This document shows positions 37,221 through 38,800 of a DNA stretch of 64,000 nucleotides, piece after piece; the first letter of the stretch is position 1, and each line of letters opens with the position of its first letter. A model generated the notes under the pieces. The model did not search any database. It worked only from the letters and a program-made list of their open reading frames with translations, and was not told the DNA's origin. The DNA is from Desulfurobacteriaceae bacterium (GTDB lineage Bacteria; Aquificota; Aquificia; Desulfurobacteriales; Desulfurobacteriaceae), in assembly GCA_027063785.1 (NCBI GenBank), contig JAMORC010000015.1, positions 1-64,000 of the forward strand, given 5' to 3'. Position numbers and translations under genes: made by a program.

Positions 37221-37237
37221 GGTGGTAGAATTTTAGC

Positions 37238-37639
37238 ATGGATGGAAATTTGAAAGTTAAGGTAATCTTAAGCGATAGGTCTTTCCCCGTTCTCTACGGC
37301 AGAAAGCCTTCTGAACTTTTTCGGCTCTTTGAAGAGGCGGTTAAGGATGTCCTTGAGGAAGTAGAGCCGAAAAAGGTAACGAACAGGGCTTTTCACGAGC
37401 TAATGAGAAGGAGAGGAAGGAAAAAGTTAAAAAGACTTAAGAGGCGTTTTTCTGCTCTGGATAGAAGTTCTCCTTATCGGAAAAAAGTTATCTACAACGC
37501 CTTTTATCGGATTTTTAAAAGGCTTGACTGGGCCAGAAGTTCGGGTTCTGAAAGGGAAATAGAGCTGAAAGTTTGGGTTACGTCGTCTGTTGATTTTCTC
37601 TGTCATTTTGTTGACCTTTTGGAGAAGCTTGATGGTTGA
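37238..37639 (+). CDS. Hypothetical basic protein, first gene of an orphan trio
   Basis: I do not recognise this 133-residue protein. A short beta-like start (LKVKVILSDRSFPVLYG) is followed by a strongly basic helical centre (HELMRRRGRKKLKRLKRRFS, about 53-72) that could bind nucleic acid, then LDWARSSGSEREIELKVWVT. A TAGAAT box at 37226-37231 lies so close to the ATG that transcripts would be nearly leaderless. It overlaps the next gene by eight bases (ATGGTTGA), so the three orphans are translationally coupled. Confidence 0.65.
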   Translation: MDGNLKVKVILSDRSFPVLYGRKPSELFRLFEEAVKDVLEEVEPKKVTNRAFHELMRRRGRKKLKRLKRRFSALDRSSPYRKKVIYNAFYRIFKRLDWARSSGSEREIELKVWVTSSVDFLCHFVDLLEKLDG

Positions 37640-37982
37640 AAGGAAAAGCTTTTGGGTTCTTCAGGAAGTTTTTGTCGATCCCGAATCGGGGGAAAAATTC
37701 CTTGAGTGCGAGCTTAACCTTTCGGTGGCCGGTGAAGCCGAAAGAATCGGCGGCGGTTACAGGGTAACCGTGGAAATATCCGGTTCACTTACCTTTACCG
37801 ACAGACAAGTGGCAAACGTGAGGTTTGTCAACCTCTCCTTTGTTGAAGCGGGGAAGAGGGTAAGGAAAGATACCGTTCTCAGGCGCATGAAGAGAAAGAA
37901 AGTAGAGGAGCTTCTCTCCCTCCTCCCCATCTACCTCGTTAAGGCGGGGATAACCGTCGGGGAAGTGATTTATGAGCTGTAG
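37632..37982 (+). CDS. Hypothetical beta-rich protein, second gene of the orphan trio
   Basis: This 116-residue protein is not recognised. It appears mainly beta-stranded (FWVLQEVFVDPESGEKFLEC, YRVTVEISGSLTFTDRQ) with a basic helical segment (GKRVRKDTVLRRMKRKKVEE, about 75-94) and a closing helix/strand. ATG 37632 is set by GGAG at 37621-37624; a longer frame from 37590 lies inside the preceding gene. It overlaps the following nuclease-like gene by 11 bases. Confidence 0.65.
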   Translation: MVERKSFWVLQEVFVDPESGEKFLECELNLSVAGEAERIGGGYRVTVEISGSLTFTDRQVANVRFVNLSFVEAGKRVRKDTVLRRMKRKKVEELLSLLPIYLVKAGITVGEVIYEL

Positions 37983-38664
37983 CTGCAGGAAGGGGATAGA
38001 GCTTGGCAGGATTAAATCGGAAGAGATAGAGGAACTCCTGAAGTTTTTAAAGAAGAACCCGGAAGCCTTCCTCCTGATCCTTGAAGTTGTTAACAGTTTT
38101 CGACCTACAGATCCTCCGAAGGTAAAGCTTGAAAGGCTTTTTCTTGCGGTTAAGGATATGTTGGAGCTTGGTCTGCTTCCCTACTCAAAGGGAAGCAGAA
38201 TTCTCAGGATACTTGAAAACTTCTTCCTGGAGAACACCGATAAGCAGAGGGGGAACTTCTTGGAAATTCTCGCTTCAAGGCTCGGACCCTTTACCTTTTC
38301 GGGCAGGTTCAGGAGGGTTAACCAGTGTAAGGTTTTCAGGGGAAGGAGGAAGCTTTCGGACAAGGAGATTGACGTAGCCTTTTCCGGAAAGGAGGTTCTC
38401 GAGCTTCACGAGTGCAAGGCCAACATGGTAAGGCAGTGGAGGGATCCTCTTGTAAAGAGAACAAAGAGGGGTAGTAAGCTTCACTTCTTGAATTCCTTGC
38501 CTTCGGAATGCAGGAACGGGAAAAAAGTTATTCCCTGCTGCAGCGGCTTGGACGGAGAGATGGGGGTGGAGTACGTGAAGCTTGTCTTCAAGTTCTACGG
38601 ATTTAGAAGGATAAAAACTTTTGGAAGAGAAGACTTCCTGGATAGGTTTCTGAAGAAAAGCTGA
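37972..38664 (+). CDS. Putative PD-(D/E)xK nuclease, third gene of the orphan trio
   Basis: No named family is recognised for this 230-residue protein, but the core of a PD-(D/E)xK nuclease is visible. Glu98 is in helix KQRGNFLEILASRLG, Asp134 in strand DKEIDVAFSG, and Glu147-x-Lys149 in strand VLELHECKANMV, spaced as in restriction-endonuclease-like folds. An N-terminal helical region (1-90) starts with a CSC motif, and further cysteines occur at 119, 148, 180 and in VIPCCSG. It could act on DNA or RNA with its two co-encoded basic partners. Nuclease activity is inferred from motifs only. Confidence 0.7.
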   Translation: MSCSCRKGIELGRIKSEEIEELLKFLKKNPEAFLLILEVVNSFRPTDPPKVKLERLFLAVKDMLELGLLPYSKGSRILRILENFFLENTDKQRGNFLEILASRLGPFTFSGRFRRVNQCKVFRGRRKLSDKEIDVAFSGKEVLELHECKANMVRQWRDPLVKRTKRGSKLHFLNSLPSECRNGKKVIPCCSGLDGEMGVEYVKLVFKFYGFRRIKTFGREDFLDRFLKKS

Positions 38665-38707: not shown

Positions 38708-38800
38708 ATGGATGCAAAACTGCTGGAACTGATTATTATTTTCCTTGTAGGCTTTATCGCTTCTATGGTTTTCCTCTACTTTATTTTAAAGAAACTCTAA
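38708..38800 (+). CDS. 30-residue single-pass membrane microprotein
   Basis: ATG 38708 to TAA 38798 encodes 30 residues: MDAKLLEL, a hydrophobic helix (IIIFLVGFIASMVFLYFIL) and a basic KKL end, a textbook inside-positive transmembrane peptide. AGGGGA at 38697-38702 is a good ribosome site five bases upstream, and a TAAAAT box lies at 38665-38670. It is 14 bases ahead of guaA. The function is unknown; such peptides often tune larger membrane complexes. Confidence 0.6.
   Translation: MDAKLLELIIIFLVGFIASMVFLYFILKKL

Follow-up and report, generated by a model that had tools for sequence, protein, structure and literature searches.

We found that three overlapping genes of a Desulfurobacteriaceae bacterium form a cassette that, on balance, probably represents a toxin-antitoxin-chaperone (TAC)-type module in which a PD-(D/E)xK nuclease effector would be under chaperone control. 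We favor this reading, with modest confidence, because the third protein, P3, combines the predicted nuclease fold with active-site residues that are invariant across three subfamilies; because the second, P2, is predicted to have a SecB fold, in a family in whose genomes no canonical SecB was found and in view of surveys that mostly place non-proteobacterial SecB genes beside toxin-antitoxin genes (PMC4257090); because the genes for P1, P2 and P3 overlap and the first two stay paired; and because a SecB-nuclease trio recurs independently in C. difficile phages, where the partner protein has a C-terminal end like that of the LAA-ended TAC antitoxins.

The window, by which we mean the whole 64,000-nucleotide stretch of DNA that was analyzed, is one contig in a 1.57-Mb genome. 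The close relatives of this genome among public records are Desulfurobacteriaceae/Thermovibrio MAGs. All three genes lie on the forward strand. P1 (37238..37639) encodes a basic, apparently mainly helical protein of 133 amino acids (pI 10.1), P2 (37632..37982, with its ATG at 37632) a 116-amino acid protein with a predicted SecB fold, and P3 (37972..38664) a predicted PD-(D/E)xK nuclease of 230 amino acids. These open reading frame coordinates give overlaps of 8 bp between P1 and P2 and 11 bp between P2 and P3, as described in an earlier note on this DNA. The GC content of the cassette (0.47) is ordinary within the window. Upstream, a divergent gap of 17 bp (37221..37237) separates P1 from pgeF (yfiH) and contains the sequence TA(G/A/T)AATTTTAGC abutting the P1 ATG, an arrangement kept in most genomes compared. 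Judging from its sequence, this element is probably a -10 box common to P1 and the divergent pgeF, and the P1 transcript probably starts at or adjoining the ATG and would be leaderless. Downstream, a 30-codon open reading frame on the forward strand (38708-38800, MDAKLLELIIIFLVGFIASMVFLYFILKKL) lies between P3 and guaA, and its product is a candidate small membrane peptide. The neighbors of the cassette in the window are pgeF, dprA, a COG1565-like methyltransferase homolog, guaA, and nadA; by eye, we judged the methyltransferase homolog not to be a DNA methylase. Inspection of these neighbors bore out the earlier statement that no modification enzyme or helicase adjoins the cassette. As they include no DNA methylase that could serve as a cognate methyltransferase beside the cassette, we rejected a Type II restriction system, in line with the earlier view that a simple restriction system is unsupported.

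The AlphaFold2 model of P3, built on an alignment of 17 orthologs (pLDDT 89.8, pTM 0.86), consists of an N-terminal helical domain (residues 1-88) followed by a PD-(D/E)xK core that begins with helix 89-104. This model places Glu98 in helix 89-104, Asp134 directly ahead of strand 135-138, and Glu147 and Lys149 of the Glu147-Cys-Lys149 motif in strand 142-149. The earlier note had called P3 a hidden PD-(D/E)xK nuclease on the basis of these four residues in the order helix, strand, strand, and the model agrees with it in fold, placement, and residue numbering. The same note had proposed conservation of the four residues in homologs as a check, and we found them invariant in 33 of 33 P3 relatives (17 orthologs, 15 paralogs, and one C. 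difficile phage homolog), which span three subfamilies that are ~22% identical. The dN/dS ratio of P3 was 0.04-0.12 in close pairs with measurable dS (one pair was dS-saturated), a range indicative of purifying selection. Given this ratio and the invariance of the four residues, the residue pattern exceeds chance. When the model was compared with the PDB using Foldseek, the best matches were Cdn1 and Can2 (E 4e-5 to 9e-4), and lesser matches to BstEII, AddAB, and McrBC followed at weaker E. From the predicted fold and the conserved residues, we conclude that P3 is a PD-(D/E)xK nuclease whose activity would be metal-dependent. Sequence searches of P1-P3 against Pfam, NCBIfam, PADLOC, PHROGs, and PDB sequences gave nothing significant except the match of P3 to PHROG 22416/32696.

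P3 has a distant paralog family of ~261 amino acids (hhalign E 3e-11) in 18 of 22 family genomes, usually encoded directly after flgL in a flagellar operon. Examples carrying the E...D...ECK pattern are L002:1270-2052 (G000:C37) and L067-L075. We recognized no SecB-like gene beside the flgL-linked paralog and found no relatives of the paralog in the viral scan. A flagellar role for P3, as this linkage might suggest, was rejected; FlgK is present even where the paralog is missing. Among P3 orthologs, Cys3, Cys5, Cys119, Cys180, and Cys190 are invariant or nearly so, and the C. difficile homolog does not have this set; in the thermophile branch, these cysteines could possibly bind a metal or an Fe-S cluster.

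P2 had been described in the earlier note as an unrecognized protein with basic segments, and its predicted structure points away from a nucleic acid binder and to a SecB fold. The AlphaFold2 model (20-ortholog alignment, pLDDT 90.4) combines four long antiparallel strands with a helix of 25 residues and a terminal strand. The first 19 Foldseek matches in the PDB were all SecB, from E. coli and H. influenzae, or M. tuberculosis Rv1957 (5mtw), with a probability of ~1.0 for nearly all. On this model, P2 is a SecB-fold protein, and it may act as a chaperone. Sequence profiles (Pfam and profile comparison) gave no match between P2 and SecB. Accepted TAC chaperones are likewise not matched to one another by this test, which we therefore consider uninformative on this point. 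A profile scan found no canonical SecB (PF02556) in any Desulfurobacteriaceae genome, and no P2 relatives were found in the viral scan.

P1 is encoded directly upstream of the putative chaperone, which is the position of the antitoxin in TAC modules. It had no significant match in Pfam, NCBIfam, PADLOC, PHROG, or the PDB. TAC antitoxins carry a C-terminal chaperone-addiction region or an LAA-type degron, and we found no AA-type degron on P1 (0 of 20 P1 proteins end in AA). The antitoxins of CmdTAC homologs are reported to vary widely in sequence (PMC9519451). When compared with the upstream protein of the C. difficile trio, P1 scored 6.7 bits, a value reached in 3 of 300 shuffles, and hhalign gave E 0.09, so that a similarity between the two sequences is doubtful.

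Four C. difficile phage-plasmids, L120 and L121 among them, were hit by P3 in a tblastn search of plasmids (E 2e-4 to 7e-4), and P3 and the C. difficile phage homolog matched by hhalign with E 1.9e-13. In these elements, a protein of 187-198 amino acids, an annotated SecB, and the P3 homolog are encoded in that order, directly after holin and amidase. The region after holin and amidase is a usual place for accessory prophage genes. Eight IMG/VR contigs carry the same gene trio, and in two of these the nuclease match is truncated to 153 amino acids; a tblastn search of INPHARED with P3, P0005, and P0006 found no relatives. Both Pfam SecB (E 3e-7) and PADLOC PD-T4-9_C, the CmdTAC chaperone (E 3e-8), match the C. 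difficile SecB, so that a SecB-like chaperone, as expected in the operon of a TAC module, is present here by profile and in our cassette by predicted fold. The upstream protein ends in DDYALAA, which resembles a degron: LAA is the C-terminal end of CmdA and other TAC antitoxins and is recognized by ClpXP (PMC11618068). Given this gene order, SecB match, and YALAA end, the C. difficile trio is built like a TAC module in which a PD-(D/E)xK protein takes the toxin role. Its members correspond to PHROGs 27061, 20189, and 22416/32696, which are annotated as unknown (P3 vs PHROG 22416, E 5e-4), and the open-access papers we searched contain no prior description of the trio as one module. We judged a PADLOC match of the C. 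difficile nuclease to PtuB (E 0.001) to be spurious, as the alignment lies mostly outside the catalytic core. The order of small protein, SecB-like chaperone, and nuclease thus recurs in unrelated phyla.

Five TAC modules were seen in other Aquificota (L148-L152), apparently HigBA or HicAB with a SecB-like chaperone; their toxin and antitoxin types (HigA- or HicB-type) were assigned by eye. In all five, the antitoxin lies directly upstream of SecB, and the antitoxin ends are GIAA, SIAA, SIAA, SLAA, and RYAA. In addition, the Deinococcus radiodurans MP1 megaplasmid has hicA near a SecB-like gene that itself precedes mcrBC (L136:3156-4516), with an unannotated gene in between. This is probably a TAC module in a defense region.

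The distribution of the cassette differs from that of mobile toxin-antitoxin modules. P3 is present in all seven Desulfurobacteriaceae genera and in 21 of the 24 Desulfurobacteriales genomes; within the family, it is missing only from one genome, which is 62% complete. P1 was found in 20 genomes and P2 in 21, so that each gene occurs in 20-21 of the 22 family genomes. Profile searches across 136 Aquificota genomes detected no P3 outside Desulfurobacteriaceae and, for P2, weak fragments only (E 0.003 or weaker); our scan of cellular genomes beyond Aquificota used strict P3 patterns, which are sensitive to close relatives only. In most genera, P1-P2-P3 is divergent from pgeF-dprA and is followed by guaA-nadA or a phosphorylase gene. 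Where contigs permit testing, this gene order is kept in all genera except one (g4). The three genes are vertically inherited in Desulfurobacteriaceae, in every well-sampled genome. As near-universal, conserved, and vertical genes, they are neither orphans, as the earlier note had labeled them, nor a recent acquisition. P1 and P2 are adjacent in every genome in which both are complete. In genus g4, P1-P2 lie by pgeF or elsewhere, and P3 is distant, behind sir2/cobB and near radC, overlapping the Sir2/CobB deacetylase gene by 4 bp (L060, L061). P1 and P2 are thus a tight pair from which P3 is separable. The earlier note had argued from tight coupling that the three proteins act as one complex; the distant P3 of g4 weakens the inference of one obligate complex. 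Overall, the earlier interpretation stands in its nuclease call, whereas its view of P2 needs changing and its case for a single complex is weaker; the TAC-like arrangement was not part of it.

As these genes are so widely kept, we considered domesticated housekeeping, in which P3 would be a nuclease of DNA repair, recombination, or transformation and P2, perhaps with P1, a dedicated chaperone for its folding or assembly, and nothing of a toxin-antitoxin mechanism would remain. This is a serious rival, although we judge it rather unlikely. It would account for the presence of the cassette in nearly all family genomes, the low dN/dS, the conserved synteny divergent from pgeF-dprA, and a P1 that carries no degron. 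It would also fit the neighbors of P3 in two lineages, a RuvB-like gene that it overlaps in one genome (G016) and the sir2 and radC genes between which it lies in g4. Against it, the dprA link runs through P1 and not P3, whose other neighbors vary (guaA, phosphoribosyltransferase, ruvB-like, and sir2). Because these neighbors differ between genomes, P3 has no consistent repair partner, and for the same reasons we rejected a role in competence or recombination suggested by dprA. The location of the C. difficile phage version, in an accessory region by holin and amidase, also argues against a housekeeping function.

It is very unlikely that P3 is a reduced member of the Card1/Can2/Cdn1 group of CRISPR ancillary nucleases (PF09002) that has lost its CARF domain and is regulated in trans. 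These enzymes are the nearest solved folds to P3 and have the same active-site spacing (PMC7969007, PMC12825302): the E-x-D and E-x-K pairs of Can2 (E276/D278 in SthCan2; E302/K304 in TsuCan2; PMC7969007) match E132/D134 and E147/K149 of P3. Unlike these enzymes, P3 has no CARF domain, no CRISPR neighborhood or nearby cas genes, and no profile-level match to PF09002, and it is fixed family-wide; its alignment with family Card1 profiles covers 21 columns only (E 0.025). In addition, the window genome has a separate, true CARF-nuclease Card1 (L109, G000:C10:18791-19060; PF09002 E 1e-18). We therefore rejected membership of P3, a 230-amino acid protein with a helical N-terminal part, no CARF, and no Pfam match, in the Card1 family. 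Least probable of all is that unrelated genes overlap by chance, as a compact genome and the unlinked P3 of g4 might suggest, given that P1-P2-P3 order is kept in the other testable genera and that SecB-nuclease adjacency is also found in C. difficile phages.

In the TAC-type module that we favor, P3 would be the nuclease effector and P2 a SecB-like chaperone. P1 would restrain P3 and need P2 for folding, a role suggested by gene position only, and the three proteins would form an inactive complex. A phage structural protein or another unfolded client could then capture P2, upon which P1 would collapse, and the freed P3 would cut DNA or RNA and so stop growth or virus replication. The C. difficile phage trio, with its LAA-type end, SecB-type chaperone, and nuclease, would be what looks like the mobile form of this module; the Desulfurobacteriaceae form, which is chromosomal and vertical, is perhaps a domesticated immune or stress switch. 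Domestication is possible because the genes are vertically inherited, P1 is degron-less, and P3 is unlinked in one genus, and it may be the simplest way to reconcile vertical inheritance with a mobile-type module. Several findings count against a TAC type: P1 carries no AA-type degron, P2 resembles SecB in predicted fold and not in sequence, the operon is family-wide with conserved synteny, unlike the patchy and mobile toxin-antitoxin modules, P3 is unlinked in g4, and the gene order differs from classical TAC, in which the toxin comes first. We propose only tentatively the more specific reading that the cassette is a degron-less core innate defense (or stress) switch fixed across a family of deep-branching thermophiles, a chaperone-sensed nuclease that is mobile in C. 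difficile phages. If the module is as we suggest, it would provide a directly testable chaperone-sensed nuclease, of which the C. difficile phage copy would be a simple, mesophilic version, and its fixation in the Desulfurobacteriaceae core genome would offer an example of the possible domestication of a mobile-type immune module.

Among known systems, the HigBA1-Rv1957 module of Mtb and the HicAB and MqsRA TAC modules have, like P2, a SecB-like chaperone directly after the antitoxin position (PMC5105189). Their toxins HigB, HicA, and MqsR cleave mRNA and have folds unlike that of P3, and, unlike their antitoxins, P1 is not recognizable as one. CmdTAC (PD-T4-9), an anti-phage TAC of E. coli, likewise consists of three genes that include a SecB-like chaperone (PMC11618068, PMC9519451), and the likeness extends to the C. 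difficile trio, in which SecB matches PD-T4-9_C and the upstream protein has the same LAA end as CmdA. The cassette is unlike CmdTAC in its order of small protein, chaperone, and effector and in the P1 of the window, which is without an LAA end. The two also differ in their effectors, an ADP-ribosyltransferase in CmdTAC and a predicted PD-(D/E)xK nuclease here. TAC toxins in the open-access papers we searched are RNase-type or ADP-ribosyltransferases (PMC11618068, PMC4257090, PMC9519451), with no PD-(D/E)xK TAC described among them, and a SecB module with a restriction-endonuclease-like effector would, if our reading is correct, widen the TAC class.
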